A stretch of DNA of 64,000 nucleotides, taken from contig NZ_CP159534.1 of assembly GCF_040529335.1 (NCBI RefSeq), forward strand, positions 3,720,001-3,784,000, in the 5' to 3' direction. Below are positions 25,304 through 47,120 of the stretch, one piece after another. The stretch comes from Streptomyces sp. HUAS MG91 (GTDB lineage Bacteria; Actinomycetota; Actinomycetes; Streptomycetales; Streptomycetaceae). The notes below the pieces were generated by a model, which ran no database searches, was not told the DNA's origin, and saw nothing but the letters and a program-made list of their open reading frames with translations. Numbering within the stretch: position 1 is the first letter of the stretch; each line of letters opens with the position of its first letter. Both the position numbers and the translations under genes were made by a program.

Positions 25304-25320
25304 TCTGACGCTCCGTCAGA
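25304..25320. promoter_or_regulatory. Palindromic operator, site 1 of a shared set
   Basis: TCTGACGCTCCGTCAGA: two perfect 7-bp arms around 3 bp, 27 nt before the SDR start and 36 nt before the divergent gene. The same palindrome is found at 43785, 43845, 45608, 45648 and 47104, always in a promoter gap of catabolic genes. Confidence 0.7.
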
Positions 25321-25347
25321 AAGATGGCCAGAGCCAGGAGGCGACCG

Positions 25348-26139
25348 ATGGGGAATGAGCTGCTCGCCGGGAAGACCGTGATCGTCTCCGGGGTCGGCGC
25401 CGGGCTCGGCCACCAGGTGGCCGCGGCCGTGGTGCGCGACGGGGGCAACGCGGTGCTCGGAGCGCGCACGGAGGCCAATCTGGCCAAGGCCGCGGCCGAG
25501 CTGGACCCGGACGGCGCCCGGACCGCGTACCGGGCCACGGACATCACCGACGAGGAGCAGTGCGCGGCCCTCGCGGCCCTGGCGCGCGAGCGGTTCGGCG
25601 GGGTGGACGCCGTGGTCCATGTCGCGGCCTGGGACAGCTACTTCGGCGGCCTGGAGGACGCCGACTTCGAGACCTGGCGCCAGGTGATCGACGTGAACCT
25701 GCTCGGCACGCTGCGGATGACCCGGGCCTGCCTGCCCGCCCTCAAGGAGCGCGGCGGCTCGGTCGTCATCATCGGGACGCAGTCGGCGGTGGCCGCGCCG
25801 AACGAGGTGTGGCAGGCGGCGTACGCGGCGTCGAAGGGCGCGCTGACGAGCGCGATGTACTCCCTGGCGCGGGAGCTGGGGCCGCACCGGATCCGGGTGA
25901 ACACGGTGCTGCCGGGCTGGATGTGGGGCCCGCCGGTGCAGGCCTTCGTCCAGTTCACGGCGCAGACCGAGAAGGTGCCGGAGGAGGAGGTCCTGGGGCG
26001 GCTCACCGAACGGATGGCGCTGCCCGAACTCGCCACGGACGGCGATGTGGCGGACGCGGCGGTCTTCTTCGCCTCCGACCGGGCCCGCGCGATCACCGGC
26101 CAGCAACTCCTGGTGAACGCGGGCGAACTCATGCACTGA
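25348..26139 (+). CDS. SDR-family oxidoreductase
   Basis: A 263-residue classical short-chain dehydrogenase. The cofactor loop is VSGVGAGLGHQ, the Asp for adenine binding is in RATDITDEE, and AYAASKGAL holds the catalytic Tyr-x-x-x-Lys with the Ser in IIGTQSAVA. The C-terminus ends ITGQQLLVNAGELMH, close to the usual ITGQxxxVDGG. GGAGG 7 nt before the ATG at 25348 fixes the start. It probably oxidises a hydroxyl group in the pathway marked by the shared palindrome. Confidence 0.88.
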   Translation: MGNELLAGKTVIVSGVGAGLGHQVAAAVVRDGGNAVLGARTEANLAKAAAELDPDGARTAYRATDITDEEQCAALAALARERFGGVDAVVHVAAWDSYFGGLEDADFETWRQVIDVNLLGTLRMTRACLPALKERGGSVVIIGTQSAVAAPNEVWQAAYAASKGALTSAMYSLARELGPHRIRVNTVLPGWMWGPPVQAFVQFTAQTEKVPEEEVLGRLTERMALPELATDGDVADAAVFFASDRARAITGQQLLVNAGELMH

Positions 26140-26166
26140 CCACGCTGGGCCGAGACTCCTTTCACG

Positions 26167-26200
26167 CGACCGCACGGGACCCGCATCCCGTGCGGTCGTT
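26167..26200. terminator. Terminator after the SDR gene
   Basis: CGACCGCACGGGA pairs with TCCCGTGCGGTCG around a CCCGCA loop and is followed by TT. It begins 28 nt after the SDR stop. Confidence 0.8.
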
Positions 26201-26474
26201 CGCGTCTGTGCGCTGCTTGTGGCTACTGACGAAGTGCCCGCTCATGGTGTGGCCCCGGTCACGTTCACGACAACTCCCCGCCTGGTCACGAAAATGCAAA
26301 ATCGTTCGGCTTGCTGATCTCGGTTCACATCCATGACCGTGAGAGCTCTTGACCGGCTCCCCGAACAAGGGGTTCAATCCCCGAAGTCCCCACTCCCGCA
26401 CGGGGGCGCCCGCTGAAACGGACGTACTGACGAAGAGCCGCAACGTTCACAAGGCGGACCCCTGGAGGGGGCAC
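26201..26474. other. Intergenic leader before the symporter, no gene seen
   Basis: 274 nt with mixed GC content. A T-arm-like hairpin (GGGGTTCAATCCCC, 26369-26382) is the only structure noticed and does not extend into a tRNA. It presumably holds the symporter promoter. Confidence 0.5.
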
Positions 26475-28037
26475 ATGAACAGTCTCGACTGGGTCGTGCT
26501 CATCGGCTATTTCGGCATCATGGTCGCGATCGGCGTCTGGTCCCACAAACGCGTGGACAACGTCTCCGACTTCTTCACCGCGGGCGGCAAGATGCCGTGG
26601 TGGCTGTCGGGCATCTCGCACCACATGTCCGGCTACAGCGCGGTGATGTTCACCGGGTACGCCGGCATCGCGTACACGTACGGCGTGACGTCCTTCGTCA
26701 CCTGGTCCTTCCCGATCGCGATCGGGATCGCCATCGGCGCCAATCTGTTCGCGCCGCGCATCAACCGGCTGCGCTCGCGGCTCCACGTGGCCTCGCCGCT
26801 GGAGTACCTGAAGAACCGCTACAACCTGCCGACCCAGCAGGCGCTCGCCTGGTCCGGCATGCTGCTGAAGATCGTGGACGTGGCGGCGAAGTGGGCGGCC
26901 ATCGCCACCCTGCTCTCGGTGTTCACCGGCATCTCCCTCAACCAGGGCATCCTGATCACCGGCGCCATCACCGCCGTCTACTGCACCATCGGCGGTCTGT
27001 GGGCCGACGCGCTCACCGAGCTGGGCCAGTTCATCATCCAACTGCTCGCCGGCGTCTCGATGTTCGTCGCGGTCGTCATCAAGCTCGACGACAAGAACAT
27101 CGGCTTCCTCGACGCCTGGAACCGGCCCGAGCTCCAGGGCCACGGCAAGCCGCTGGTCGGCCAGTACGGCGCGGTGTTCCTGCTCGCGTTCCTGTTCATC
27201 AAGCTCTTCGAGTACAACGGCGGCATGCTCAACCAGGCCCAGCGCTACATGGCCACCGGCTCACCCCGCGAGGCCACGCGCTCGGCCCGGCTGTCGGCGG
27301 TCCTGTGGCTGGTGTGGCCGGCGGTCCTGTTCTTCCCGATGTGGATGTCGCCGCTGCTCGTCCACGCGCAGAAGCCGGACGGCTCCGACTCCTACGGCCT
27401 GATGACCGAACAGCTGCTGCCGCACGGTCTGCTGGGCCTGGTCATCGTCGGCTTCTTCTCGCACACCATGGCCATGTGCTCCTCGGACGCCAACGCCATC
27501 GCCGCCGTCTTCACCCGGGACGTCGCTCCGGTGCTCTCCGCCAAGGCGCGGTCCTGGAACGAGCGGCGGGGCCTGATCGCCGCCCGGGTGACGACCGTCG
27601 TCTTCCTCGGCCTGTCCATGGCGGTGGCCACGCAGGTCAACTCGCCGACCTTCAAGGACATCATCACCGTCGTCATCAAGTGGGTCGCCGGGCTGATGGG
27701 GCCGATCGCGATCCCGATGATGCTGGGGCTGCTGCGGCCGTTCCGCAAGTCCGGGCCGACCGCCGCGCTGACCAGCTGGGCGATGGGGCTGCTGGCCTTC
27801 TGGCTGGTCAACTACCCGATCAGCTGGAACGTGGACGGGGGCGTCCCGCTCCAGTACCAGGTCTCGATCCCGCTGGCGGTGTCTCTCGTCCTGTACATCG
27901 GCATCGGCTTCGTCAAGCCCGAGGACACGCCCGAGCGCGACGACATCATCGAGCGCATCAACACGGACGACGACTCCGGCGCGGCCGCAGCCGTCCCGGC
28001 CCCGGCCACCGCCCAGGACGACGTCCAGCGGTTGTAG
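26475..28037 (+). CDS. Sodium:solute symporter (SSS family)
   Basis: A 520-residue secondary transporter with about 13 membrane helices. Its start, DWVVLIGYFGIMVAIGVW, with FFTAGGKMPWWLSGISHHMSGYSA, is the typical N-terminal core of SSS proteins. LFIKLFEYNGGMLNQAQRYMA and FFSHTMAMCSSDANAIAAVFTRDV are further family segments, the latter carrying sodium-site Ser residues. GGAGGGGG precedes the ATG at 26475. SSS members take up sugars, amino acids or carboxylates with Na+; the substrate is not predictable and there is no linked enzyme on the same strand. The C-terminal tail is Ala/Pro-rich. Confidence 0.9.
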   Translation: MNSLDWVVLIGYFGIMVAIGVWSHKRVDNVSDFFTAGGKMPWWLSGISHHMSGYSAVMFTGYAGIAYTYGVTSFVTWSFPIAIGIAIGANLFAPRINRLRSRLHVASPLEYLKNRYNLPTQQALAWSGMLLKIVDVAAKWAAIATLLSVFTGISLNQGILITGAITAVYCTIGGLWADALTELGQFIIQLLAGVSMFVAVVIKLDDKNIGFLDAWNRPELQGHGKPLVGQYGAVFLLAFLFIKLFEYNGGMLNQAQRYMATGSPREATRSARLSAVLWLVWPAVLFFPMWMSPLLVHAQKPDGSDSYGLMTEQLLPHGLLGLVIVGFFSHTMAMCSSDANAIAAVFTRDVAPVLSAKARSWNERRGLIAARVTTVVFLGLSMAVATQVNSPTFKDIITVVIKWVAGLMGPIAIPMMLGLLRPFRKSGPTAALTSWAMGLLAFWLVNYPISWNVDGGVPLQYQVSIPLAVSLVLYIGIGFVKPEDTPERDDIIERINTDDDSGAAAAVPAPATAQDDVQRL

Positions 28038-28046
28038 GCAGGGTGT

Positions 28047-28097
28047 CGCGCCCCTGGGCGAGCGCAGCTCGTTCCAGGGGCGCGGGGAACTGCGCGA
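28047..28097. repeat. Dispersed GGGGCGCGGGGAACTGCG element, copy 4
   Basis: Arms CGCGCCCCTGG (28047-28057) and CCAGGGGCGCG (28074-28084) form a hairpin, followed by GGGAACTGCGCGAGAAGCGG. It lies between the convergent symporter and DraG-like genes. Confidence 0.75.
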
Positions 28098-28126
28098 GAA
28101 GCGGCCACCGGGCCGCGCGTGACGAA

Positions 28127-29242
28127 CTACCCGGCGGCCCGGGGATACCGCGCCAGCCAGCCCTCCGACGCACCGGCCGGCCCGTGCAGCGCGGCCCCCT
28201 GCGTCATCTCCATGGCGAAATCATCGGCCAGCTCCAAGATCGTGGGCCGACCCTCAAGCTCCACCACCCACGCCGGAGGCAACGCGGTCTCCCCGTGCAA
28301 CGCCCCCAACAACCCCCCGCACAACGCCCCGACGGCAGCCGAAGGCCCGTCGTGGTGAACGGCGAGCCCGAGCCCGTGCCGGATGTCCTCCCCGACCAGC
28401 GCGCAGTACACGGCCCCGGCAAGCGCCCCGACGGCCCCGCCGTCACCGACCAGCTCCCCGACCCGCGCGGCGTTCGGCATCCCCTGCCGCACGGCCCCCA
28501 GCGCATGCTTGAGCGCGTCCACGACCGGCGGATGCCCGGGCCGGGCGGCGAGCAGGGCGAGAGCGCGCTGCACGGCGGCGTCCAGCGAGTCCCCGCGCGC
28601 GAGGGCGTGCACGATCACGGCGTAGGCGCCCGCCGACAGATACGCCTCGGGCGCCCCGTGGGTGTGGACGGCACACTCGACGGCCAGCTGGAGCACGAGC
28701 TGCGGCTCCCAGCCGACCAGCAGCCCGAACCCGGCGGACCGCGTCGCCGCCTCGGGCCCGTCCGCGTCGGGGTTCTTGGGCTTGTCCAGGGTGCCCATGA
28801 CGTCGTTGCCGAGCCCGAGCAGGCAGGCGGAGGCGGCACCGCGGCGCGCGTACAGCCACTCCTCGCGGGCCAGCCAGCCGTCCTCCTTGCGCCGCTCGTC
28901 GGGCCCCCAGTCGCGCTGGGTGGCGGCCCACCGCAGATAGGCGCGGTGCACGTCGGTGGGCGGATGCCAGGCGCCGGTGTCGCGGCGCACCTGGGCGCGG
29001 ATCAGCCCGTCGACGGTGAACAGCGCGAGCTGGGTGGCGGCGGTGACGGCGCCGGTGCGGCCGAAGGCGGGCAGCAGCTCGGCGCCGCTCGCCTTCGGGG
29101 CGTCCTCCGGGGCCTTCTCGTCGAGCGGGGCGCCCAGCGCGTCGCCGAGCGCGGAGCCGAGCAGCGCGCCGCGCACCCGGCTGCGGAAGTCCTGCTGTTC
29201 GGCGCGGCCCCAGACGGCCCCGGCGGCGGGTGGTGCGCCCAT
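28127..29242 (-). CDS. ADP-ribosylglycohydrolase family protein (DraG-like)
   Basis: A 371-residue protein of the all-helical ADP-ribosylglycohydrolase family, which removes ADP-ribose from proteins or small molecules. The opening RVRGALLGSALGDALGAP is the family signature with Asp for metal binding, and DGPSAAVGALCGGLLGALHG corresponds to the second metal-binding segment (usually D-x-D-T/S; here it reads HHDGPSA). The first metal motif (often TDDT) is replaced by TAATQLALFT, so one metal site may be altered. GGAG lies 5 nt before the ATG at 29242. The target is unknown. Confidence 0.85.
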   Translation of the reverse strand: MGAPPAAGAVWGRAEQQDFRSRVRGALLGSALGDALGAPLDEKAPEDAPKASGAELLPAFGRTGAVTAATQLALFTVDGLIRAQVRRDTGAWHPPTDVHRAYLRWAATQRDWGPDERRKEDGWLAREEWLYARRGAASACLLGLGNDVMGTLDKPKNPDADGPEAATRSAGFGLLVGWEPQLVLQLAVECAVHTHGAPEAYLSAGAYAVIVHALARGDSLDAAVQRALALLAARPGHPPVVDALKHALGAVRQGMPNAARVGELVGDGGAVGALAGAVYCALVGEDIRHGLGLAVHHDGPSAAVGALCGGLLGALHGETALPPAWVVELEGRPTILELADDFAMEMTQGAALHGPAGASEGWLARYPRAAG

Positions 29243-29474
29243 GGCTCTCCTTCGCTGCCCTGCGGCCCTCGACTCGCAGCACTGTAATCGACCAGGAACG
29301 TTCGCTTCAGTGATCCAAGCGACCTCAACTGGTATGGGAAGAGACGCCCTTGTGGTCACTTCGGCACGTATTTGCCCTGTTCGCGAAGGTACAGAAGAGT
29401 CCGCTTCCTGAGGTTCCCGCTCCGTTCACCGCCCCGTCGCGCCCCGCTCTCCGACGGGCCGAAGCATCCGCCTC

Positions 29475-30566
29475 ATGACGCACACGAAGCAGCAGATGAC
29501 GCGTGTCAGGGGCACGGTCACCGCTCTGTCGGCCGCCGCCTTCCTGGCCACTCTCGCAGCCCCCGCGGCCTCCGCGCACTCCGCACACGCCGGGCACCAC
29601 GCATCGTCCGCCCGGATCCCCTTCACGCAGGCCGTGGTGACGGCGGCGGCGACCCCGGGCACGTACGAGATCACCTGGAAGGCGCCCGGCACCCGGCACG
29701 TCACCGTCAAGGCGAACGGCCGCACCGTGGCGAGCGGCGGCTCCACCGGCAAGGTGAAGGTCACCGGTCTGCCCGCGCACGTCGACCGCCAGTGGTTCGA
29801 CCTCACCCCCGACCACGGCCGCGGTCTGCGCCTGGCCGACCGTCTCGTCAAGCTGGACGGCGCGGTGAACTTCCGCGACGCCGGCGGCTACCGCACCACC
29901 GACGGCCACTGGGTGAAGATGGGCGAGATCTACCGCTCGGACGCGCTCGACAAGCTGACCGGCGCCGACCTCGCCAAGCTGAAGCGGCTCGGCATCGACA
30001 CGGACTTCGACCTGCGGATGGCCTCCGAGCGCTCCGCCGCGCCCGACCGGGTCCCGAGCGGCACCTCGTACGTGGTCGCGGACGTCCTCGCGGGCCAGGA
30101 CACCGGCACCACGCTGCCCACGACCGAGGCCGCGGCCGTCGCCATGATGACCGAGGGCGAGAAGTTCATGGTCAGCGGCGCCTCCGCGAAGAGCGCCTAC
30201 CAGAAGGTCTTCGGCGGCATCGCCGACGGCGACAGCGTCCTCTTCCACTGCACGGCGGGCAAGGACCGCACGGGCTGGGCGAACGCCGCGCTGCTCACCG
30301 CGCTCGGCGTTCCCCGCGAGACGGTCATGGCCGACTACCTCGCCTCGAACGACTACCGCGCCGAGGCCAACGCGGCGGCCCTCGCCTCGATGCCGCCGGA
30401 GCAGGCCAAGGTCTACAAGCCGCTCCTCGACGTCCGCGCCGAGTACCTGAACTCCGGCTTCGACGAGGTGAGGAAGACCTTCGGCTCCTTCGACGCGTAC
30501 GAGCGCCAGGGCCTCGGCCTCAGCAAGAGCGAACTCCGCGACCTCAAGCGCGACCTGCTGGTCTGA
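29475..30566 (+). CDS. Secreted tyrosine/serine protein phosphatase
   Basis: A 363-residue exported phosphatase of the PF13350 type. The signal peptide ends near ASA-HSAHAG (about residue 36). A beta-rich domain of about 70 residues is followed by the phosphatase core: NFRDAGGYRTTDG, EIYRSDALDKLT, LRMASERS, and the P-loop HCTAGKDRTG with the nucleophile Cys259. This family includes PTPs active on phosphotyrosine, phosphoserine and phosphoinositides. An extracellular place is unusual for a phosphotyrosine phosphatase and suggests action on host, competitor or phosphate-ester substrates. It ends 13 nt before the convergent fbiC. Confidence 0.87.
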   Translation: MTHTKQQMTRVRGTVTALSAAAFLATLAAPAASAHSAHAGHHASSARIPFTQAVVTAAATPGTYEITWKAPGTRHVTVKANGRTVASGGSTGKVKVTGLPAHVDRQWFDLTPDHGRGLRLADRLVKLDGAVNFRDAGGYRTTDGHWVKMGEIYRSDALDKLTGADLAKLKRLGIDTDFDLRMASERSAAPDRVPSGTSYVVADVLAGQDTGTTLPTTEAAAVAMMTEGEKFMVSGASAKSAYQKVFGGIADGDSVLFHCTAGKDRTGWANAALLTALGVPRETVMADYLASNDYRAEANAAALASMPPEQAKVYKPLLDVRAEYLNSGFDEVRKTFGSFDAYERQGLGLSKSELRDLKRDLLV

Positions 30567-30579
30567 GCGGCGCCCGCCC

Positions 30580-33186
30580 TCAGTCCTCCAACACGGGCAG
30601 CAGCTCCGGCAGATGCCCGTCCGAGGCCGCCGCCGCGTGGACCCGTTCGTCCGGGACGGTGCCGTACAGGGTCGTCCGGGGCTTCGCCGGGCGGCCCGCC
30701 GCGTCGGCGACCGCGATCAGGTCCTTGACGGACTTGTACGAGCCGTAGGAGGAGCCCGCCATGCGGGAGATGGTCTCCTCCATCAGGGTGCCGCCGAGGT
30801 CGTTGGCGCCGGAGCGGAGCATCTCGGCGGCGCCCTCGGTGCCCAGCTTCACCCAGCTGGTCTGGATGTTGGGGATGTGCGGGTGGAGCAGGATGCGGGC
30901 CATGGCGGTGACGGCACGGTTGTCGCGGGTGGTCGGGCCGGGGCGGGCGATGCCCGCCAGGTAGACCGGAGCGTTGGTGTGGATGAACGGCAGCGTCACG
31001 AACTCCGTGAAGCCGCCCGTCTCCTGCTGGATGCCGGCCAGGGTCCGCAGATGCCCGAGCCAGTGGCGGGGCTGGTCCACATGCCCGTACATCATCGTGG
31101 ACGAGGAGCGGATGCCCAGTTCGTGGGCCGTCTTGATGACCTCGATCCAGGTGGCCGTGGGCAGTTTGCCCTTGGTGAGGACCCAGCGGACCTCGTCGTC
31201 GAGGATCTCGGCGGCCGTGCCGGGGATCGAGTCGAGGCCCGCCTCCTTGGCGGCGGTCAGCCACTCGCGGATGGACATGCCGGTGCGGGTCGCGCCGTTC
31301 ACGACCTCCATCGGTGAGAAGGCGTGGACGTGCATGCCGGGCACGCGTTCCTTCACGGCCTTCGCGATGTCGAAGTAGGCCGTGCCGGGCAGGTCCGGGT
31401 GGATGCCGCCCTGCATGCAGACCTCGACCGCGCCGACCTCCCACGCCTGCTGGGCCCGGTCCGCGACCTGGTCGAGCGACAGGGTGTACGCGTCGGCGTC
31501 CGTGCGGCGCTGGGCGAAGGCGCAGAAGCGGCAGCCGGTGTAGCAGACGTTCGTGAAGTTGATGTTCCGCGTGACGATGTACGTGACGTCGTCGCCGTTC
31601 ACCGTTCTGCGGATGTCGTCGGCGACCTTGCAGAGGGCGTCGAGGGCCGGGCCGTCCGCGTGCAGCAGGGCGAGGGCCTGGTCGTCGGTGAGCTTCGTCG
31701 GGTCGTCGGCCGCGACCGCCAGCGCCTCCCGTACGTCGCCGTCGATGCGGGACGGGACCATGCCGGGCGCCGCCTGCTCGCGCAGCGCCTCCCAGTCGCC
31801 GTACACCTCGTCGAAGTCGTCGCGGCGGTCGGACGTGCGGCCGTCGGTGTCGATGGTGCGGTGCAGGTCGGTGCGGCCCGAGGAGGCGACGTAGCCCTCG
31901 TCGGGCTCCTGCCACGGGCGGCCCACGACCGGCGCGTCCGCGATCGCGAGGCCGGTGTCCGGGTCGGCCAGCGCGCGCACGTGCGGGAGCAGGCGCGGGT
32001 CGAGCCACGGCTCGCCGCGCGTCACGAACTCCGGGTACACGCACAGCCGTTCGCGCAGCTCGAAACCGGCCTGCGCCGACTGCCCGGCCAGCTCCTCCAG
32101 CTTCGGCCACGGCTTCTCGGGGTTGACGTGGTCGATGGTCACCGGGGAGACGCCGCCCCAGTCGTCGATGCCCGCGCCGATGAGCCGCGTGTACTCGCCG
32201 TCGACCAGGTTCGGCGGGGCCTGGAGATTGCCGGACGGGCCCATGATGTGCCGGGCGACGGCGACCGTGGCGACGAGGTCGTCGAGGTCGGCGTCGGGCA
32301 TGCCGCGCATCGCCGTGTCCGGCTTCGCGCGGAAGTTCTGGATGATCAGTTCCTGGATGCCGTGGTACGAGCGTGCGGTGCGGCGCAGCGCGAACAGCGA
32401 CTCGGCGCGCTCCTCGTAGGTCTCGCCGATGCCGATCAGCAGCCCGCTGGTGAAGGGGACCGAGGAGCGGCCGGCGTCCTCCAGGACCCGCAGCCGCACG
32501 GCCGGTTCCTTGTCCGGGGAGCCGTGGTGCGGCATGCCGGGCTCGGACCACAGGCGTTCGGCGGTCGTCTCCAGCATCATGCCCATGCTCGGCGCGACGG
32601 GCTTGAGGCGCTGGAAGTCGGTCCAGGAGAGCACCCCGGGGTTGAGGTGCGGGAGCAGGCCCGTCTCCTCCAGGATGCGGATGGATATGGCGCGCACGTA
32701 GGCGATGGTGTCGTCGTAGCCGTGCGCGTCGAGCCACTCGCGGGCCTCGGGCCAGCGGTCCTCGGGCTTGTCGCCGAGGGTGATGAGGGCTTCCTTGCAG
32801 CCGAGTTCGGCGCCCTTGCGCGCGACGTCCAGGACCTCGTCCGGCGACATGAACATCCCGTGCCCGGCGCGCCGCAGCTTGCCGGGGACGGTCACGAACG
32901 TGCAGTAGTGGCACTTGTCGCGGCACAGCCGGGTGAGCGGGATGAAGACGCTCTTGGAGTACGTGATGACGCCGGGCCGGCCCGCGGCCTCCAGGCCCGC
33001 GTCGCGCACCCGGGCGGCCGACGCCGTGAGGTCGTCCAGGTCGGCGCCGCGCGCCTGGAGCAGCACGGCGGCCTCCGTGACATCGAGCGCGACGCCGTCC
33101 CTGGCCCGTTTCAGGGCGCGGCGCATCGCGTTGGCCGTGGGCCGGTCGGTCTGCTGCGTCTGGGGTACGGCGTCCTGATCACTCAT
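30580..33186 (-). CDS. fbiC: FO synthase, bifunctional radical-SAM enzyme
   Basis: An 868-residue fusion of CofG and CofH that makes 7,8-didemethyl-8-hydroxy-5-deazariboflavin, the chromophore of coenzyme F420, from tyrosine and 5-amino-6-ribitylamino-uracil. Each half has its own 4Fe-4S cluster motif: CRDKCHYC (Cys88, 92, 95) and CYTGCRFC (about 546-553). The N-terminal half also shows [10 protein letters not shown] and the C-terminal half [14 protein letters not shown]. The ATG at 33186 gives a normal length for the fused actinobacterial enzyme. It lies 68 nt downstream of a luciferase-like oxidoreductase on the same strand, a likely user of F420. Confidence 0.96.
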
Positions 33187-33254
33187 GAATTGAGCATACG
33201 AGCGGTGCCCCGCGGCCCACGAGAGCGCACCCCGGGGGCGTTCCGCGCGGCCCC

Positions 33255-37353: not shown

Positions 37354-37372
37354 GCGCCCAGCATCCGCCGCC

Positions 37373-38911: not shown

Positions 38912-38971
38912 GAACAGGACGTTAAATCCTGCGGTTTCCACATCTGGCGGGATTCACACCGTCTGCACCAC

Positions 38972-38989: not shown

Positions 38990-39147
38990 TCCGGGCAATC
39001 ACTTTCGACTCAGCTGGACAATTACAGACTGCGGCTGTCAATGCAAGGAGATCGGCCCGGTGTCCGATATTCGGTAATCGCAGCCGGGTCCGATATGCCC
39101 CGTTCAAAATTTTCCCGTGACGGTTGGGTCACGTCGCCCGGGTCACG

Positions 39148-40641
39148 TCACCCGGGCCACACGATCGACTGCAGCTCGCTGTACGCGTGCAGCGCGTACG
39201 AGCCGACGTCGCGCCCCACCCCGCTCTTCTTGAACCCGCCGAACGGCGCCTCCATGTTCCGCCCGACCGTGTTCACCCCGACCCCGCCGGCCCGCAGCCG
39301 CCGCGCGACCCGGAAGGCGCGGGCGACGTCGCCGGACCAGACGTAGTCGATGAGCCCGTAGTCGGAGTCGTTGGCCAGCGCCACCGCCTCGTCCTCGTCG
39401 CCCGGCCCCTCCCCGTCGAAGGGGACGACCGTCACGACCGGCCCGAAGATCTCCTCGCGCACCACCCGCATGTCGTTGGTGCAGCCGGCGAGCAGCGTGG
39501 GCGCGACGTAGAACCCCGTGTCCGTGCCGGGACCGGCGGGCCGTTCCCCGCCCGCGACCACCGTCGCCCCCTCCTTGCGCCCCAGCTCCACGTACGACTC
39601 CACGCGCTCGCGGTGCGCCGCCGAGATGACCGGCCCGACGACCGTGCCCCGCTCCCTCGGGTCGCCGACCTTCATGAACCCGATGTACGCGGTGAGCTTG
39701 TCGACGAACGCGTCGTACACCGAGCGGTGCACGAGCGCCCGGGTCGGCGCCGTGCAGATCTGCCCGCTGTAGAAGGCGTACGTGGTGCCGATCCCGGCGA
39801 CGGCCGAGTCCAGGTCGGCGTCGCCGAAGACGATCGCGGCGCCCTTGCCGCCCAGCTCCATCAGCTGCCGCTTCATGGAGCGCCCGCACACCTCGCCGAT
39901 GCGCTGACCGACGGCGGTGGAGCCGGTGAAGCTGACCATGTCCACGTCCGGAGCGTCGACGGCCGCCTCGCCGACGTCCACGGCTGCCCCGCTGACCACG
40001 TTCACCACACCCGGCGGCGCCCCGGCCTCCGCCAGCGCGGCCGCCATCCGGTACACGGAGAGCGGGTCCTGCGGGGCGGGCTTCACGACGACGGTGTTGC
40101 CCATGGCGAGCGCGGGCGCGACCTTGCCCGCCGGGTTGGCCCACGGGTTGTTGTACGAGGTGATGCAGGTGACGACGCCGACCGGCTGGCGCACCGCGAG
40201 CGCGCCCATCACCCCGGCCTTCCCCATCGGCCCGGCCTCGTTGATCTGCGGCGCCAGCCCTTCCTCGACGGGTTCGAGGGCGCCGCGCGCGTACCGCCGG
40301 AACCGGGTGACGCCGACGCCGACCTGCATCCCGCGCGCCGTCCCGGTGGTGGCGCCGCTCTCGGCCTGCGCCAGCTCGGCGTTGGCCGCGAAATCGCGCT
40401 GCATCAGGTCGGCGGCCCGGTCGAGGATCGCGGCCCGCTCCTGGGGCGTCGTGCGCGACCAGGGCCCGAAGGCGTCGCGGGCGGCGCGCGCGGCGTCGTG
40501 CACCTGCTGCCGCGTGGCCTCGGGGGCGGCGCCGACGACCCGCTCGCTCGCCGGGTCGACCACGTCGTACGTACCGCCCGCGGGCTCGACCCACTCGCCC
40601 CCGATGAACAGCTTTCCCGAGGTGTCGTCCACAGCGCTCAC
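39148..40641 (-). CDS. Aldehyde dehydrogenase
   Basis: A 497-residue NAD(P)+-dependent aldehyde dehydrogenase. It shows NNPWANPAGKVAPALAMGNTVVVKPA (cofactor Lys), VSFTGSTAVGQRI, QLMELGGKGA (general-base Glu) and SGQICTAP with the nucleophile Cys296. The C-terminus carries NMEAPFGGFKKSGVGRD. GTG at 40641 overlaps the stop of the upstream amidohydrolase by 4 nt (GTGA), so the pair is translationally coupled. It probably oxidises an aldehyde made in the catabolic pathway encoded between 39 and 47 kb. Confidence 0.92.
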   Translation of the reverse strand: MSAVDDTSGKLFIGGEWVEPAGGTYDVVDPASERVVGAAPEATRQQVHDAARAARDAFGPWSRTTPQERAAILDRAADLMQRDFAANAELAQAESGATTGTARGMQVGVGVTRFRRYARGALEPVEEGLAPQINEAGPMGKAGVMGALAVRQPVGVVTCITSYNNPWANPAGKVAPALAMGNTVVVKPAPQDPLSVYRMAAALAEAGAPPGVVNVVSGAAVDVGEAAVDAPDVDMVSFTGSTAVGQRIGEVCGRSMKRQLMELGGKGAAIVFGDADLDSAVAGIGTTYAFYSGQICTAPTRALVHRSVYDAFVDKLTAYIGFMKVGDPRERGTVVGPVISAAHRERVESYVELGRKEGATVVAGGERPAGPGTDTGFYVAPTLLAGCTNDMRVVREEIFGPVVTVVPFDGEGPGDEDEAVALANDSDYGLIDYVWSGDVARAFRVARRLRAGGVGVNTVGRNMEAPFGGFKKSGVGRDVGSYALHAYSELQSIVWPG

Positions 40642-42377
40642 TTGGTGCTCACCGTCCGGGTGTCCTGCCCCGAGCGGAGCACCTTGCCGGGCACGGCGCC
40701 GCTGACGACGTCGCCGCGGATGGCCTCGACCCCGTTGACCCACACCGCCGTGATGCCGATGGCCTTGGAGTCGAGGCGGGGGCTGTCGCCGGGCAGGTCG
40801 TGCACCAGGGTCGCCTTGCCCGCGTCGATGGCCTCCGGGTCGAAGAGCACCAGATCGGCGTGGAAGCCCTCCTGGACCGTCCCGCGCTCGCGCAGCCCGA
40901 ACAGCTCGGCCGGGTCCGAGGTCAGCATCTTCACGGCCTGCTCCAGGGAGACCAGCCTGCGCCCGCGCAGACAGTCCCCGATGAACCGGGTCGTGTACGG
41001 GGCCCCGCACATCCGGTCCAGGTGCGCCCCGGCGTCGGAGCCGCCCAGCATGACGTCCTCGTGGCCCCAGGCCTCGGCGCGCAGCGCCCACGAGTCGGGG
41101 TCGTTGTCGGTCGGCATCGGCCACAGGACCGTCCGCAGCCGGTCGTTGGCGCAGATCTCGACCAGGGCCTCGAAGGGCTCCTGCCCGCGCTCGGCGGCGA
41201 TGTCCTTCACCACGCGCCCGGTCAGCCCCGCGTTCGCCTCCGAGTAGGTGTCCCCGATGACGTACCGCCCGAAGTCGGCGAGCCGCCGGAAGACGCCGGC
41301 CTCCTTGCTGTCGGCGCGGCGCAGCATCTCGGCGCGCACGTCCGGGTCCCGGAGCCGCTCGATCCGCTCGTCCACGGGCAGCCCGAGGACGTCGCCCCAG
41401 CCGGGGATGAGGTTGAGCGCGCAGAACGTGCCGAGCGACATGTTCATCGGGGTCAGGATCGGCATGGTCAGGGCGATGATCCGGCCGCCCGACTCGCGGG
41501 CCCGCTCACTCGCGGCGAGCTGGCGCGGTACGCGTTCGGGGACGGCGGCGTCGATGGTCAGCACGTTCCAGTTCAGGGGCCGCCCGGCGGCGGCGCTCAT
41601 CTCGACGAACAGGTCGATCTCGTCGTCGCTGAACTGATCGAGGCACCCGGCGACGATGGCCTCGATCTGGGTGCCCTCGTGCTCGCCGACCGCCTTGCTG
41701 AGCGCGATGAGTTCGGCGGGCAGCGCGTGCCGCGACGCGACCGGCTTGCCGTCACCGTCGGAGTGCGTGGAGGACTGGGTGGTGGACAGCCCCCAGGCAC
41801 CGGCGTCCATGGCCTCGTGGAACAGCGCGAGCATGGCGTCCATCTGCTGCTCGCTGGGCTGCCCGCCGACGGCGTCCGCCCCCATCACGTACCGGCGCAG
41901 CGCGCAGTGCCCCACCATGAAACCGGCGTTGACCGCGATCCGTCCGTCGAGGGCGTCGAGGTACTCCCCGAACGAGTTCCAGCTCCAGGGCGCCCCCTCT
42001 TCGAGCGCGACCAGCGACATCCCCTCGACCTTCGACATCATCCGCCGCGTGTAGTCGGCGTCGTCGGGCCGCTCGGGGTTGAGCGGGGCGAGCGTGAAGC
42101 CGCAGTTGCCGCCCGCGACCGTGGTCACACCATGGTTGAGGGAGGGCGTCGCGTACGGGTCCCAGAACAGCTGCGCGTCATAGTGCGTGTGCGGATCGAC
42201 GAACCCGGGAGCGAGCACGAGCCCCGAGGCGTCCTCGCTCGTCCGCGCCCGCTCGGCGACGGCTCCGGGCTCGGCGATAACGGCGATGCGCCCGTCACGG
42301 ATGCCGACATCGGCGACGTAGGCGGGGGCACCGGTCCCGTCGACGACGGTGGCGCCCTTGATCAGGTGGTCGAGCAT
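40638..42377 (-). CDS. N-acyl-D-amino-acid deacylase family amidohydrolase
   Basis: A 579-residue metal-dependent amidohydrolase of the D-aminoacylase type. LVLAPGFVDPHTHYDAQLFWDP carries the His-x-His metal pair, VAGGNCGFTLAP the metal-binding Cys region, and VMLGGSDAGAHLDRMCG the late Asp and His. The C-terminus is the small beta domain (ADLVLFDPEAIDAG). GAGGAG precedes the ATG. Many proteins of this family sit in catabolic clusters and open cyclic amides or lactams rather than D-acyl amino acids. That fits this location better than amino-acid deacylation. Confidence 0.87.
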   Translation of the reverse strand: MLDHLIKGATVVDGTGAPAYVADVGIRDGRIAVIAEPGAVAERARTSEDASGLVLAPGFVDPHTHYDAQLFWDPYATPSLNHGVTTVAGGNCGFTLAPLNPERPDDADYTRRMMSKVEGMSLVALEEGAPWSWNSFGEYLDALDGRIAVNAGFMVGHCALRRYVMGADAVGGQPSEQQMDAMLALFHEAMDAGAWGLSTTQSSTHSDGDGKPVASRHALPAELIALSKAVGEHEGTQIEAIVAGCLDQFSDDEIDLFVEMSAAAGRPLNWNVLTIDAAVPERVPRQLAASERARESGGRIIALTMPILTPMNMSLGTFCALNLIPGWGDVLGLPVDERIERLRDPDVRAEMLRRADSKEAGVFRRLADFGRYVIGDTYSEANAGLTGRVVKDIAAERGQEPFEALVEICANDRLRTVLWPMPTDNDPDSWALRAEAWGHEDVMLGGSDAGAHLDRMCGAPYTTRFIGDCLRGRRLVSLEQAVKMLTSDPAELFGLRERGTVQEGFHADLVLFDPEAIDAGKATLVHDLPGDSPRLDSKAIGITAVWVNGVEAIRGDVVSGAVPGKVLRSGQDTRTVSTK

Positions 42378-42410
42378 GCCTGCTCCTCAACGATCGAGCC
42401 CAGCAGAATC

Positions 42411-42571
42411 AAGCCCCCGACGGGGCACATCAAGCTCCTCCTGGCGGGGTCACAACAAGCCCCTCGGCGGGGCACAACAAGCCCCTCCGGCGATTGAGGA
42501 ACGGGGTCCGGGGCAGAGCCCCAAACCAAGCCCCTCCGGCGATTGAGGAGCGGGGTCCGGGGCGGAGCCCC
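42411..42571. repeat. CAAGCCCCTCCGG repeat cluster
   Basis: Two 45-nt copies at 42478-42522 and 42527-42571 differ at a few positions only (CAAGCCCCTCCGGCGATTGA, then GGGGTCCGGGGC-GAGCCCC). Three shortened units beginning CAAGC precede them at 42411, 42431 and 42456. The 3' half of each full unit is a hairpin (GGGGTCCGGGGC/GAGCCCC). The cluster lies between the deacylase and the luciferase-like gene on the same strand. Confidence 0.85.
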
Positions 42572-42641
42572 GTGACAGCGACAAGAGGGGAGCCCCGGCC
42601 CTCCTGTCCGGGAGGAGGAGAACCGGGGCAGTCGCGGAGCG

Positions 42642-43760
42642 CTACGCGGCCGACCGGAACCGGGTCGTCCGATGCACCGGATCCGTGTCGATCTTCGGGA
42701 TCACATGCTCCCCGATGAGCTTGATCGAGTTCAGCGTGTCCTCGTGCGAGATCCCGATCGGCAGCCCGAAGGAGAGCTGGTCGGCCCCGGCCTGCTCCCA
42801 GCGCTTGCACTGCTGAAGCACCTCGCCCGGGTCACCGCAGATCATCAGCTCCTCGGCGATGAGGAGTTCGATGATCTCCCGGTTGTACTCGGGAAGGACC
42901 TCGGGCCACTCGGGAATGCCCTCGGGCCGCGGGAACGTGTCGTGGTACCGGAAGACCAGCGACTGGAGGTAGTTGAGCCCGCCGCTCACCGCGATGTCGA
43001 CGGCCTTGTCATGGGTCTCGGCACAGATGGCCGTCGACGTCACCATGACGTTGTCGTTGACGAAGTCACCGATGGGGTCCGGGTCCTGGATGGCGGTCTT
43101 GTACTGCTCAAGGACCCACTCCATGTCCGAGACCTTCTGGACGCTGAAGCCGAGCACGCCGAGCCCCTTCCTGGCGGCCATCGCGTACGAGGGCGGGGAC
43201 CCGGCCGCGTACCACATGGCGGGGTGCGACGTGCCGTGCGGCTTGGGGAAGATCTTGCGCGGCGGCAGCGACCAGTGCTTGCCCTGGAACCCGACGTACT
43301 CGTCCTGGAGCCACATCTTCGGGAACTCGGCGATGGTCTCTTCCCAGATCTCCTTGGTGTAGTTCATGTCCGTCACACCAGGGATGAAGCCGAGGATCTC
43401 GTGGCTGCCGGCGCCGCGCCCGCTGCCGAACTCGAACCGCCCCTCGCTGAGGTGGTCCATCATGGCGACCTTCTCGGCGACCTTCACCGGATGGTTCACC
43501 TGGGCCAGCGGGTTGAAGATGCCGGAGCCGAGGTGGATCCGGTCGGTCGCGTGCGCCAGGTACCCGAGGAACACGTCGTTCGCCGAGAGGTGCGAGTACT
43601 CCTCCAGGAAGTGGTGCTCGGACGCCCAGGCGTACTTGAAGCCGGACTTGTCCGCCTGGATGACGTACTCGGTCTCGTTCATGAGCGCGCGGTGCTCGGC
43701 GGTGGGGTCGGTCAGCGCCTGCTTGCCCACGTATCCCTGTACAAAGAGCCCGAATTCCAA
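42642..43760 (-). CDS. LLM-class flavin-dependent oxidoreductase
   Basis: A 372-residue luciferase-like oxidoreductase, longer than the F420 enzyme at 33 kb and closer to bacterial-luciferase alpha-type monooxygenases. FKYAWASEHHFLEEYSHLSANDVFLGYLAHATDRIHLGSGIFNP is the standard core, and EGRFEFGSGRGAGSHEILGF the phosphate-binding loop. The start codon is TTG at 43760 with a weak AGGACGG site; no better in-frame start exists. Two shared palindromes lie 25 and 85 nt upstream. It probably hydroxylates or opens a ring (Baeyer-Villiger type) in the pathway; whether it uses FMN or F420 is undecided. Confidence 0.85.
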   Translation of the reverse strand: MEFGLFVQGYVGKQALTDPTAEHRALMNETEYVIQADKSGFKYAWASEHHFLEEYSHLSANDVFLGYLAHATDRIHLGSGIFNPLAQVNHPVKVAEKVAMMDHLSEGRFEFGSGRGAGSHEILGFIPGVTDMNYTKEIWEETIAEFPKMWLQDEYVGFQGKHWSLPPRKIFPKPHGTSHPAMWYAAGSPPSYAMAARKGLGVLGFSVQKVSDMEWVLEQYKTAIQDPDPIGDFVNDNVMVTSTAICAETHDKAVDIAVSGGLNYLQSLVFRYHDTFPRPEGIPEWPEVLPEYNREIIELLIAEELMICGDPGEVLQQCKRWEQAGADQLSFGLPIGISHEDTLNSIKLIGEHVIPKIDTDPVHRTTRFRSAA

Positions 43761-43784
43761 GGAGGTTCACCGTCCTCGTCAGTT

Positions 43785-43861
43785 TCTGACGATCCGTCAG
43801 ATTGGATGGGATGACTGTTCCACTGCGACCTGTGACCGTCAATAGCTGACGCATCGTCAGG
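43785..43861. promoter_or_regulatory. Palindromic operators, sites 2 and 3
   Basis: TCTGACGATCCGTCAGA (43785-43801, perfect 7-bp arms) and GCTGACGCATCGTCAGG (43845-43861, perfect 6-bp inner arms). Their centres are 60 bp apart, about six helical turns, in the promoter gap of the luciferase-like gene. Confidence 0.75.
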
Positions 43862-43873
43862 CAATGCCGTCGG

Positions 43874-44653
43874 CTAGATGATGCTGACCCCGGCGAGCCA
43901 GCCGCCGTCGACGACGAACGGCTGCCCGGTGATGTACGCGGAGTCCTCCTCGGCGGTGAGGAACAGCGCGAGCCGCGCGACCTCCTCGGGCCTGCCGACC
44001 CGGCCGAGCGGCACGAGCTTGCGGTACAGCTCGTCGAGGGCCTCGGTGCCGGCCTGGATGTCGCCGCCCGGGTCGAGCTGGGCGGGGTTGCTCATCGCGG
44101 TGTCGATGGCGCCCGGGCAGACGGCGTTGACGCGGATCTTCTTGGCCGCGAGCTCCAGGGCGGCGACCCGGGTGAGCCCGACGATGGCGTGCTTGCTCGC
44201 GGCGTACGCGCCGACCAGCGCCATGCCCGTGATCCCGGTGAACGAGGAGGTGTTCACGATCGACCCGCCGCCCGCGGCGGCGATCTCGGGGGCGATGGTC
44301 TTGATCCCGAGGAAGGCGCCGACCTGATTGACGTTCATGATCTGCTGGAACTCCTCCAGCGGGGTGCTGGTCAGTTCGTTGAAGCGCAGGATGCCCGCGT
44401 TGTTGACCAGCCCGTCGATCTTCCCGAAGGCGTCCTTGGCGGCGCGCGCCGCAGCGCCCCAGTCCTCCTCCTTGCTGACGTCGAGGTGGACGAAGTGACC
44501 GCCGATCTCCTTGGCGACGGCCTCCCCCTGATCGTCGAGGACATCCGCGAGGACGACCTTCGCCCCCTCGGCGGCGAACAGCCGCGCCTCCTTCTCGCCC
44601 TGCCCGCGCGCCGCGCCCGTGATGAGAACGACGCGCCCGTCCAGCTTGCCCAT
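43874..44653 (-). CDS. SDR-family oxidoreductase
   Basis: A 259-residue classical short-chain dehydrogenase with [32 protein letters not shown] (NAD-binding fold, Asp for NAD preference), [10 protein letters not shown], the catalytic Ser in IVNTSSFTG, and [15 protein letters not shown] with Tyr and Lys. The ending [15 protein letters not shown] is typical of the 3-alpha/20-beta-hydroxysteroid dehydrogenase group. GAGGAG precedes the ATG at 44653. It follows the luciferase-like gene at 44665 by 11 nt, so the two form an operon. Confidence 0.9.
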
Positions 44654-44664
44654 GCCCTTGCTCC

Positions 44665-45591
44665 TCAGGTGAGTTGGGGTGCCACGCCGTCCGCGAAGGC
44701 GGCGATCTGGTCGACGAGTTCGGTCCGGCCGCGGCTGCGGAAGCGCACCTGGATCTGGTGCACGCCCATCGCCGCGTACGCGCGCAGCGACTCGGCCAGT
44801 TCGTCCGGGGAGCCGGTGAGGGTGCGCCGTCCGACGTGCCAGGAGGGTTCGCCGATGTACAGCGGCTCGGCGATGGCCCCGATGGTCAGGGGCGCCTCGA
44901 TCCCGGCGTCGGCGCGCAGCCGCCCGATGGTCCGGATCTTCTCGGCGAGCTGTTCCCGCGGGTCGCCCTGCGGGAGCCATCCGTCGCCCTTGAGCGCGGC
45001 GCGGCGCACGGCGGGCGCCGACGACCCGCCGACCCAGACGGGGACCCGCGCCTGAGCGGGCCGGGGCTTCTGCCCCAGCCCCTCGAACTGGAACAACTCC
45101 CCTTTGTAGGACGGGAACTCCTCCTGCGTGAGCGCCGCCCTGAGCGCGTCGACGGTCTCGTCCAGCACCGCCCCGCGCCGCGCGAAGTCGACGCCCAGCG
45201 CCTCGAACTCCTCCTGTACGTGGCCGGCCCCGACCCCGAGGATCAGGCGTCCGCCGCTGAGGTGGTCGAGGGTCGCGTAACTCTTGGCGGAGAGCAGCGG
45301 GTGGCGCAGCGCGACGACGGCGACGTGGCTGAGCAGCCTGGTCCGCTCGGTCACGCCCGCCAGGTAGGAGAGGGTGGCGACGGGGTCGTACCAGGTCGTC
45401 GACATCGCGTCGGCGAGGCGGCGCGGGATGCCGACGTGGTCGCAGACCGCGATGTAGTCGAAGCCTCCGCGGTCGGCGGCCCGCGCGATCTCCACCAGGT
45501 CGTCGACTCCGGCTCCGTCCTCCCACTTCTCGGCGTACATGGTGCTCTGGGACTGAATGGGGAGCTGAATCCCGTAAGCGAGCCGCGCCAT
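44665..45591 (-). CDS. LLM-class F420-dependent oxidoreductase
   Basis: A 308-residue luciferase-like enzyme of the F420 subgroup: [74 protein letters not shown], and RVPVWVGGSSAPAVRRAALKGDGWLP. GAGGGG lies 9 nt before the ATG at 45591. Two copies of the shared palindrome lie 17 and 57 nt upstream. The substrate is unknown; with the SDR behind it, it would reduce or oxidise one ring or side-chain position. Confidence 0.87.
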   Translation of the reverse strand: MARLAYGIQLPIQSQSTMYAEKWEDGAGVDDLVEIARAADRGGFDYIAVCDHVGIPRRLADAMSTTWYDPVATLSYLAGVTERTRLLSHVAVVALRHPLLSAKSYATLDHLSGGRLILGVGAGHVQEEFEALGVDFARRGAVLDETVDALRAALTQEEFPSYKGELFQFEGLGQKPRPAQARVPVWVGGSSAPAVRRAALKGDGWLPQGDPREQLAEKIRTIGRLRADAGIEAPLTIGAIAEPLYIGEPSWHVGRRTLTGSPDELAESLRAYAAMGVHQIQVRFRSRGRTELVDQIAAFADGVAPQLT

Positions 45592-45607
45592 ACCCGGTAC
45601 CCCTCTA

Positions 45608-45664
45608 TCTGACGGACCGTCACATCCCGGCGCCCCACATCCTCGTACCTGACACCCCGTCAGA
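45608..45664. promoter_or_regulatory. Palindromic operators, sites 4 and 5
   Basis: TCTGACGGACCGTCACA (45608-45624) and CCTGACACCCCGTCAGA (45648-45664), each with small departures from the TCTGACG-N3-CGTCAGA pattern. Their centres are 40 bp apart, about four helical turns, upstream of the luciferase-like/SDR operon. Confidence 0.7.
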
Positions 45665-45692
45665 CAAGGGGTACGACCCCACAGGCCCCGGC

Positions 45693-45783
45693 TGCGCAGT
45701 TCCCCGCACCCTTGGGTTGGCGCGCCTCCCTGGATGAGAGGCCGCACGAAGTGCGCATCTCAGGGGCGCGGGGAACCGCGCAA
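45693..45783. repeat. Dispersed GGGGCGCGGGGAACTGCG element, copy 5 (diverged)
   Basis: GCGCAGTTCCCCGCACCC near 45693 and CAGGGGCGCGGGGAACCGCG at 45761 form an imperfect inverted repeat. Unlike the other copies it lies between two genes on the same strand (amidohydrolase and luciferase-like gene). Confidence 0.7.
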
Positions 45784-45815
45784 GACAACCCCGCGCAACC
45801 CCGGCCCGGGTCAGA

Positions 45816-47084
45816 TCACGGCGCTGAGGGCCCCCAGAGCCCACCCGGAGTCAGCCCGAGCAGATCAATGGCGTTCCCCCGCACAATGCGCTCGACCACA
45901 TCAGCCGCAAGATGCCCCATCTGCGCCTCCCCCACCTCCCGAGACTTCGGCCAGGTCGAATCGGAGTGCGGATAGTCGGTCTCGTACAGAACATTGGCCA
46001 CCCCGATCGAGTCCAGGTTCCGCAACCCGAAGGCGTCGTCGAAGAAGCACCCGTACACGTGCTCCGCGAAATACTCACTCGGCGGCTTGCGCACCTTGTC
46101 GGCGACGCCACCCCACCCCCGGTTCTCCTCCCACACCACATCGGCCCGCTCCAGGATGTACGGGATCCACCCGATCTGCCCCTCGGCGTACATGATCCTC
46201 AGGTTCGGGAACCGCTCGAACTTCCCGCTCATCAGCCAGTCGACCATCGAGAAGCAGCAGTTGGCGAAGGTGATGGTGGACCCGACGGCCGGCGGCGCGT
46301 CGGGCGACGTCGACGGCATCTTGCTGCTGGAGCCGATGTGCATGGCGATGACGGTCCCGGTCTCGTCGCACGCGGCGAGGAACGGATCCCAGTCGTCGGT
46401 GTGGATGGACGGCAGCCCGAGATGCGGCGGAATCTCGGAGAAGGCGACGGCACGCACCCCGCGAGCGGCATTGCGCCGCACCTCGGCGGCGGCCAGCTCG
46501 GCGTCCCAGAGCGGGACGAGGGTGAGCGGTATCAGGCGCCCGGCGGCAGCCGGCCCGCACCACTCGTCCACCATCCAGTCGTTGTACGCGCGCACCCCGA
46601 GCAGCCCCAGTTCCCGGTCCTTGGCCTCGGTGAAGGTCTGCCCGCAGAAGCGCGGGAAGGTGGGGAAGCAGAGCGCGGACTGGACGTGGTTGACGTCCAT
46701 GTCGGCCAGCCGGGCGGCGACGTCGAAGGAACCCGGCCGCATCTGCTCGTAGGTGATGACCTCCAGCTTGATCTCGTCCCGGTCGTAGCCGACGGCGGTG
46801 TCGAGCCGGGTGAGGGGCCGGTGCAGATCCTCGTACACCCACCAGTCGCCGATCGGCCCGTCGTCCCCGGGCCGGCCCATGACGGGCGCGAACTTTCCGC
46901 CCAGAAAGGTCATTTCCTTCAGGGGCGCGCGGACGATGCGCGGCCCCACGTCGGCGAACTTCCTCGGCAGCCGGTCGGACCACACGGTGGGCGGCTCGAC
47001 GGTGTGGTCGTCGACGGAGATGATGCGCGGCAAGTCGACTGATTCCGGGGCACTTTGGGTGTTTGCGGTCTCCGTGGTCTCCAT
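45816..47084 (-). CDS. Amidohydrolase family 2 protein (ACMSD-like)
   Basis: A 423-residue TIM-barrel metallohydrolase or decarboxylase of the PF04909 group. The N-terminal metal motif is IISVDDHTVEPP, a variant of D-x-H-x-H with the second His replaced. ADMDVNHVQSALCFPTFPRF, TVIAMHIGSSSKMP (metal His), MYAEGQIGWIPYILERAD and NVLYETDYPHSDSTWP (active-site Asp) follow in the usual order. Related enzymes decarboxylate or hydrolyse aromatic and cyclic acids. ATG at 47084, with the sixth shared palindrome 20-36 nt upstream, makes it part of the same regulon. Confidence 0.87.
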   Translation of the reverse strand: METTETANTQSAPESVDLPRIISVDDHTVEPPTVWSDRLPRKFADVGPRIVRAPLKEMTFLGGKFAPVMGRPGDDGPIGDWWVYEDLHRPLTRLDTAVGYDRDEIKLEVITYEQMRPGSFDVAARLADMDVNHVQSALCFPTFPRFCGQTFTEAKDRELGLLGVRAYNDWMVDEWCGPAAAGRLIPLTLVPLWDAELAAAEVRRNAARGVRAVAFSEIPPHLGLPSIHTDDWDPFLAACDETGTVIAMHIGSSSKMPSTSPDAPPAVGSTITFANCCFSMVDWLMSGKFERFPNLRIMYAEGQIGWIPYILERADVVWEENRGWGGVADKVRKPPSEYFAEHVYGCFFDDAFGLRNLDSIGVANVLYETDYPHSDSTWPKSREVGEAQMGHLAADVVERIVRGNAIDLLGLTPGGLWGPSAP

Positions 47085-47103
47085 GGATTCACGGTAGCGC
47101 CGA

Positions 47104-47120
47104 ACTGACGACCCGTCAGC
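47104..47120. promoter_or_regulatory. Palindromic operator, site 6
   Basis: ACTGACGACCCGTCAGC, with perfect 6-bp inner arms, 20 nt before the amidohydrolase start. Close packing against the start codon suits a repressor that blocks transcription or early elongation. Confidence 0.7.

Follow-up and report, generated by a model that had tools for sequence, protein, structure and literature searches.

In the genome of Streptomyces sp. HUAS MG91, we propose, with a probability of about 0.72, that the palindrome CTGACG-N3-CGTCAG serves as operator for a single TetR repressor that would act at about 35 promoter gaps and govern acyl-CoA catabolism of steroids or sterols, possibly of isoprenoids; a TetR_C_38 protein is its most likely owner. 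The palindrome was described in a stretch of 64,000 nucleotides (the window; G000:C1:3720001-3784000, contig NZ_CP159534.1) of this 8.6-Mb genome, where the original prediction took six copies as the mark of a TetR-type regulon and left both regulator and substrate unnamed. A short palindrome with a small spacer at the promoters of several transcription units supports the TetR-type reading, and for the two missing names we now propose a TetR_C_38 candidate and the steroid/sterol class. The regulon is real.

With up to two mismatches allowed, TCTGACG-N3-CGTCAGA matched the genome 77 times, against 3 matches for a backwards-read control, and a 16-mer at one mismatch gave 47 + 46 matches against 1 + 0; the earlier remark that no copy exists elsewhere thus holds inside the window only. 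A genome scan had been named beforehand as a test, and it found the copies mostly between genes rather than at random within them. Using gene calls made around the sites by a codon-usage script, 45 of 63 classified sites were intergenic (13.5% at random; binomial p 1e-25) and 39 of 63 lay within 250 bp upstream of a start (19.6% at random; binomial p 2e-13). These 63 come from 66 distinct sites, the remainder being one intergenic site at a locus edge and two inside genes on a 165-kb contig. Intergenic sites scoring 16 or more number 40 and spread over 35 gaps; the score matrix was trained on intergenic sites, which makes score bins partly circular but not the tally of 45 of 63. The median distance to the start codon is 42.5 bp (30 of the 35 sites scoring 20 or more, those with a start within 400 bp), which fits a blocking repressor.

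It is hardly credible that the palindromes represent a dispersed repeat, or an element of terminator type, with no regulatory role. Among the 121 Streptomycetaceae genomes surveyed, g14 and some other genera do carry up to 394 look-alike copies, partly with TCCGACG or CGTCGGA halves, and g14 genomes have no match to the cytochrome P450 CYP125; the better copies in the source genome, however, precede start codons and mark mainly one pathway. We dropped the g14 counts as a sign of a huge regulon, many of the copies listed for genome G081 having a TCCGACG or CGTCGGA half, and these copies look like a separate repeat or another operator. Site counts were therefore compared only among 28 genomes of the same genus, where the 18 with CYP125 hold 50 to 117 sites and the 10 without it 18 to 53 (p=3e-5).

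Genes of the steroid side-chain type (CYP125, steroid thiolase, ChsH/Ltp and FadE) carry the sites, and they stand behind many of those outside the window. A marked P450 scored 508 bits against CYP125 and 505 bits against chains named steroid C26-monooxygenase, and the thiolase divergent from it is of FadA5 type, matching the steroid 3-ketoacyl-CoA thiolase model NF005889 at 687 bits (cut-off 515). One marked operon encodes an acyl-CoA dehydrogenase (FadE), a ChsH2-like protein, an acyl-CoA dehydrogenase, a 142-residue MaoC protein in the position of ChsH1, and Ltp2; its ChsH2-like and Ltp2 products match chains of 4w78 and 6ok1. This order, FadE-ChsH2-FadE-MaoC-Ltp2, resembles the mycobacterial igr operon. 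Further marked genes encode a two-part acyl-CoA dehydrogenase of 731 residues, a MaoC hydratase with an MFE-2 domain, thiolases, acyl-CoA dehydrogenases, AMP-binding ligases, short-chain dehydrogenases (SDRs), an enoyl-CoA hydratase, luciferase-like enzymes and an F420H2-dependent reductase domain. The steroid/sterol class of substrate has good support. Of the 121 genomes, 53 have both CYP125 and an IpdA-like gene and one has the IpdA-like gene without CYP125; the pathway parts found in the source genome comprise the ipdA-like gene, KstR, KstR2 and an Mce protein.

Three side observations concern gene content around the sites. An apparent Mce transport operon lies near CYP125 (L023:14975-19974, L293:1-4979) and has no palindrome; the one protein of it that was examined has Mce4_CUP1 and MlaD domains. 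A strong palindrome falls between ndk and an mreB-like gene (G000:C1:2915048; L024:4049), an odd place for a catabolic regulator. In a genome that lacks CYP125, a palindrome precedes a flavin reductase-type gene (L089:13905-14695), and in the source genome one likewise precedes the start of a similar-looking gene (L028:2-336).

Within the window the six copies lie where they had been placed, all in promoter gaps according to independent gene calls (the genes, including the luciferase-like llm1 and llm2, are given further below):

25304..25320, unstranded: putative operator copy 1, TCTGACG-CTC-CGTCAGA, exact match, in the divergent gap between the 278-residue protein gene and the SDR gene
43785..43801, unstranded: putative operator copy 2, upstream of llm1, exact match
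43845..43861, unstranded: putative operator copy 3, spaced 60 bp from copy 2, 2 mismatches
45608..45624, unstranded: putative operator copy 4, upstream of llm2, 1 mismatch
45648..45664, unstranded: putative operator copy 5, spaced 40 bp from copy 4, 2 mismatches
47104..47120, unstranded: putative operator copy 6, ahead of the amidohydrolase gene by 20 bp, 2 mismatches

At up to two mismatches these six compare with 0.02 per window expected from the whole-genome reversed control. At up to three, the window holds 8 matches against a shuffle mean of 4.67, a count reached by 12 of 100 shuffles and not significant alone, and the two extra matches (48294 and 53426) fall inside genes. Copy 1 lies 28 bp ahead of the SDR start and 37 bp ahead of the divergent start of the 278-residue protein gene. 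Conservation before orthologous genes had likewise been named as a test, and the sites passed it: the position of copy 6 is occupied in 17 of 17 loci examined (from 42 other genomes with an amidohydrolase orthologue; at L241, where the gene-calling script missed the gene, the position was judged from match coordinates). The position of copy 2 is also occupied, by the stronger member of a pair in L233, L234, L237 and L242 and by a lone copy in L248. Pairs of the copy 2/3 type, 60-77 bp apart, recur in L233, L234, L237, L238 and L242; copies upstream of llm2 recur in L233, L234, L238, L242 and L244, as 4/5-type pairs 41-43 bp apart in L233, L234 and L242. In L237 and L248, llm2 directly follows the amidohydrolase gene and has no copy of its own. 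The pair distances of 60 and 40 bp were confirmed, but not their description as whole helical turns: they amount to 5.7 and 3.8 turns at 10.5 bp per turn, and with spacings of 60, 63, 60, 63 and 77 bp and of 43, 41 and 43 bp at orthologous loci, helical phasing is only approximate.

The source genome has an orthologue of KstR (L022:2645-3268; 134 bits to KstR chains, TetR_C_20 domain); 154 bp ahead of the start of this gene lies a box that agrees with the published KstR motif. A further three KstR-motif boxes stand beside palindromes, at a two-part FadE gene, an aldehyde dehydrogenase (ALDH) gene and another FadE gene. We examined the 400 bp upstream of CYP125 in 20 of the 52 other genomes that have this gene and found the palindrome in 17 and a relaxed KstR box in 12; in all 12 of the latter promoters the box lies 31-39 bp upstream of the palindrome. 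A background of 316 gene starts, from 12 CYP125-negative TetR loci and nine loci of the source genome not picked for a site, gave 4 palindromes and 1 relaxed KstR box. Two other backgrounds were rejected, 96 of 465 as inflated by loci chosen for their sites and 0 of 272 for omitting three CYP125-negative TetR loci with sites. A plain Streptomyces KstR regulon, in which the KstR orthologue has shifted its sequence preference and uses the palindrome as operator, is very unlikely. The orthologue exists, and many of the marked genes belong to types under KstR control in mycobacteria (PMC1995591); the KstR-motif boxes are nonetheless separate elements, whether before kstR, beside the palindromes at three genes or, relaxed, at CYP125. 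(Here and below, cited articles are represented by excerpts, and what is credited to them holds for those excerpts.)

KstR2 also has an orthologue (197 bits to 4w97). At a distance of 4-9 kb from it lie two successive genes, the first for an enoyl-CoA hydratase and the second for an IpdA-like CoA-transferase (321 bits to 6co6, a structure of IpdA). An apparent steroid ring-degradation cluster with the IpdA-like gene and the KstR2 orthologue was noted at G000:C1:2215072-2228322 (L230/L231). Neither 20-kb stretch around the ipdA-like genes and kstR2 contains a palindrome, and KstR2 was set aside as its owner on that ground. The KstR2 box pattern AnCAAGnnCTTGnT had no match in the loci of the source genome examined. 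Since orthologues of KstR and KstR2 exist and KstR boxes stand beside palindromes, a third regulator is the probable owner of the palindrome.

Judged from sequence, the probable regulator is a TetR_C_38 protein encoded at G000:C1:4815479-4816123, about 1 Mb from the window and 1.8 kb from the nearer of two palindromes. It occurs in all 121 Streptomycetaceae genomes, usually once (as three fragments in G074, twice in G022 and G078), and its DNA-binding part is almost invariant among 14 sequences. In a set of 30 loci, five (L053, L056, L060, L064 and L065) have a palindrome ahead of an SDR-TetR unit, as do L082 and L084. Of 20 loci examined outside the family, seven have the SDR-TetR unit facing genes for an enoyl-CoA hydratase and an IpdA-like protein, and all seven carry a palindrome in the gap. 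In six of six loci of one other family (L210-L213, L216 and L217) the TetR gene is immediately preceded by weak copies of lower symmetry (scores 13-18); among the other non-family loci, five have only weak copies (12-15) around the TetR start and two have none. A comparison of about 20 kb around the TetR gene in 20 diverse genomes gave 3-5 sites for each of the eight that have CYP125 and 0-2 for each of the twelve that lack it. Sites upstream of a TetR gene had been expected to name the regulator; such sites were seen in several genera and families, but not in the source genome, where the gene's own promoter has no copy. The structure model is a good TetR fold (predicted local distance difference test score 90) whose top neighbours are EthR-like and give no ligand clue. 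At L083, L085, L086, L088, L090 and L092-L096, TetR_C_38 is kept where CYP125 is missing and hardly any or no palindrome lies nearby, and in such genomes the protein may have another job.

Contrary to the original prediction, regulator genes do exist in the window, a TetR gene at 433-1095 and an XRE-type gene at 22962-23819 (Sco1979 family, 287 bits, below the cut-off of 350). No palindrome lies near this TetR gene, and nothing was found that ties either gene to the palindromes.

A number of observations weigh against the TetR_C_38 regulon proposed here. In 25 of 30 loci, source genome included, the TetR gene has no strong palindrome closer than about 1.5 kb, and the protein is kept in all 121 family genomes, even those without CYP125 and most sites, so that its presence alone is no proof of a link. 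Few of the TetR genes of the source genome (at least 139 TetR_N matches, with 150 of 337 candidates scored) were compared as rivals. CYP125 lacks the palindrome in three genomes of two genera (L317-L319), and in those genera the TetR_C_38 gene adjoins ipdA. The KstR-like box at CYP125 matches the published motif only when this is relaxed, 18 of the 63 sites are intragenic (including 3 of the 35 scoring 20 or more), and a few marked genes, near mreB/ndk or for apparently secreted proteins, are out of place in steroid catabolism. The first two of these points would suit an operator owned by another TetR or by a regulator of another family, with TetR_C_38 linked to it only by sitting among steroid genes. 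We consider such an owner unlikely, given that the palindrome directly precedes the SDR-TetR unit in several genera and in two further families, and that weak copies directly precede the TetR gene in all six loci examined from another family. The one rival TetR compared, at L030:7227 near a site, was rejected as a family-wide owner, being found in only 14 of 121 genomes.

The proposed TetR_C_38 regulon has several relatives by description. KstR and KstR2 are already known, and in mycobacteria a third TetR-linked palindrome (motif X) and, in another species, KstR3 have already been proposed. As is proposed for the present system, the mycobacterial KstR regulon has a TetR repressor with palindromic operators at many lipid and steroid genes; it shares sites in divergent gaps and a gap with two copies, and KstR is autoregulated. 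Its operator, however, is TnnAACnnGTTnnA rather than CTGACG-N3-CGTCAG (PMC1995591). The KstR orthologue has a TetR_C_20 domain whereas the candidate regulator has TetR_C_38, and the two types of box occur next to each other in Streptomyces. KstR2 shares TetR control of ipdAB-type C/D-ring genes (PMC5380842, PMC9782250). A further likeness is that genera other than this one have the new palindrome in the gap ahead of ipdA-like genes, but in the source genome the ipdA-like cluster near the KstR2 orthologue carries none. SRTF1 of Nocardioides simplex is likewise a steroid-responsive TetR with a palindrome beside a ketosteroid dehydrogenase gene, yet this palindrome has 22 bp and few sites (PMC7062782, PMC7807495). 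EthR is the closest solved fold to the TetR_C_38 model (template-modelling score about 0.77, about 19% identity over the fold) and also the closest by profile sequence match in the DNA-binding part; its operator is described as larger and more complex (PMC4482099).

The present system may be the counterpart of motif X/Rv0767c or of KstR3, by analogy of description. Motif X, in Mycobacterium sp. VKM Ac-1817D, is a third TetR-linked palindrome at sterol-induced genes, with 14 operons reported and autoregulation suggested; it precedes phytosterol-induced P450, ALDH and SDR genes, twice with a KstR site (PMC6593523). In the HBC operon of Mycolicibacterium neoaurum, the TetR gene kstR3 lies near genes of sterol side-chain breakdown, for an aldolase, a DUF35-type protein and an acyl-CoA dehydrogenase, chsE6 among them; the excerpts give no operator for it (PMC10398937). 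That TetR_C_38 is the very orthologue of the regulator so proposed (Rv0767c/G155_05115, or KstR3) would be compatible with our proposal, and it is a possibility we hold doubtful. By transcriptome KstR3 acts on its own cluster, a kstR3 mutant showing seven genes changed, four of them at that cluster (PMC10398937), and the sequence TGACG/CGTCA does not occur in the excerpted text of PMC6593523 or PMC4482099, where motifs are drawn as figures. We found no paper on such a regulon in Streptomyces in the open-licence literature, subscription papers being outside this coverage.

As we envisage it, a repressor dimer would bind the palindromes close to start codons and would be released by a pathway metabolite, presumably derived from sterols. 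Release would switch on together CYP125, the FadA5-type thiolase, FadE, ChsH2/Ltp2, the acyl-CoA ligase, the F420-enzyme, the thioesterase-like protein and the window genes. At some promoters, such as CYP125 with its adjacent box, this repressor would be layered on KstR, and the ipdA-type ring-degradation genes would answer to their own KstR2. A fuller scheme, which we offer tentatively and at somewhat less than even odds, has three TetR proteins acting at once, KstR2 on the C/D rings, KstR on a small core and the family-wide TetR_C_38 broadly. A fixed two-box module, the KstR box followed 31-39 bp downstream by the palindrome, would give CYP125 a response to two metabolites, the window enzymes would form an undescribed F420/thioesterase arm, for example for fungal sterols, and TetR_C_38 would retain an older, extra duty.

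The window genes concerned are as follows:

24431..25267, minus strand: 278-residue protein, family unassigned (no NCBIfam or Pfam match at E 1e-5)
25348..26139, plus strand: short-chain dehydrogenase (NF005909, 340.5 bits, cut-off 258)
39148..40632, minus strand: aldehyde dehydrogenase, end of a likely llm1-deacylase-ALDH unit (profile match and orthologous loci)
40638..42377, minus strand: amidohydrolase/deacylase-type protein, downstream of llm1 (weak amidohydrolase-family matches only)
42642..43760, minus strand: luciferase-like monooxygenase llm1 (PF00296, 155.7 bits)
43874..44653, minus strand: SDR (SDR2), second gene of the llm2 unit (profile match; behind llm2 in orthologous loci)
44665..45540, minus strand: F420-type luciferase-like enzyme llm2, start uncertain (TIGR03619, 235 bits, cut-off 167)
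45816..47084, minus strand: Amidohydro_2 protein (PF04909, 142.9 bits; best solved chains 8uyr DitZ and 6omp PtmU3)

For llm1 the original prediction gave a TTG start at 43760 and the gene caller a GTG at 43730; the orthologues in L234 and L248 likewise start upstream of the GTG position. Its label 'EthD-like' for the 278-residue protein found no Pfam match at the threshold used, and among solved chains its 'ACMSD-like' enzyme is nearest to DitZ (195.6 bits) and PtmU3 (123.7 bits), those of ACMSD scoring 31-37 bits. PtmU3 is a thioesterase, and the window amidohydrolase is possibly a thioesterase of the DitZ/PtmU3 kind. Its orthologue (E 1e-100 or better) is found in 43 of 61 genomes of the genus, source genome included, and a paralogue at 58% (G000:C1:4787170) lies under two palindromes beside acyl-CoA dehydrogenase and ligase genes. 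Where llm1, SDR2 and llm2 adjoin in orthologous loci, single or paired sites recur. The deacylase-ALDH pair had been thought separate; the deacylase gene comes next after llm1 on the same strand in all six orthologous loci where both genes were found, so the pair probably belongs to the llm1 unit, with an llm1-deacylase gap of about 14 bp in two orthologous loci and 264 bp in the window. Together these genes would make up a side branch that assists the catabolism of sterols or isoprenoids.

In a survey from 2016, no steroid pathway was credited to 55 of 57 Streptomyces genomes (PMC4810484), in contrast to the co-occurrence of two marker genes, CYP125 and an IpdA-like gene, in 18 of 28 genomes sampled from the genus. 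A Streptomyces CYP125 is reported to hydroxylate cholesterol (PMC9728343), and cyp125A13 is reported to be up-regulated in a Streptomyces preying on yeast, whose sterols disappear (PMC13170338). For the study of how Streptomyces degrades sterols, the palindrome described here offers a regulator and about 35 promoters that can be tested, and it assigns a probable pathway to several orphan enzymes. A named switch would tie together genome, diet and, possibly, steroid biotechnology.

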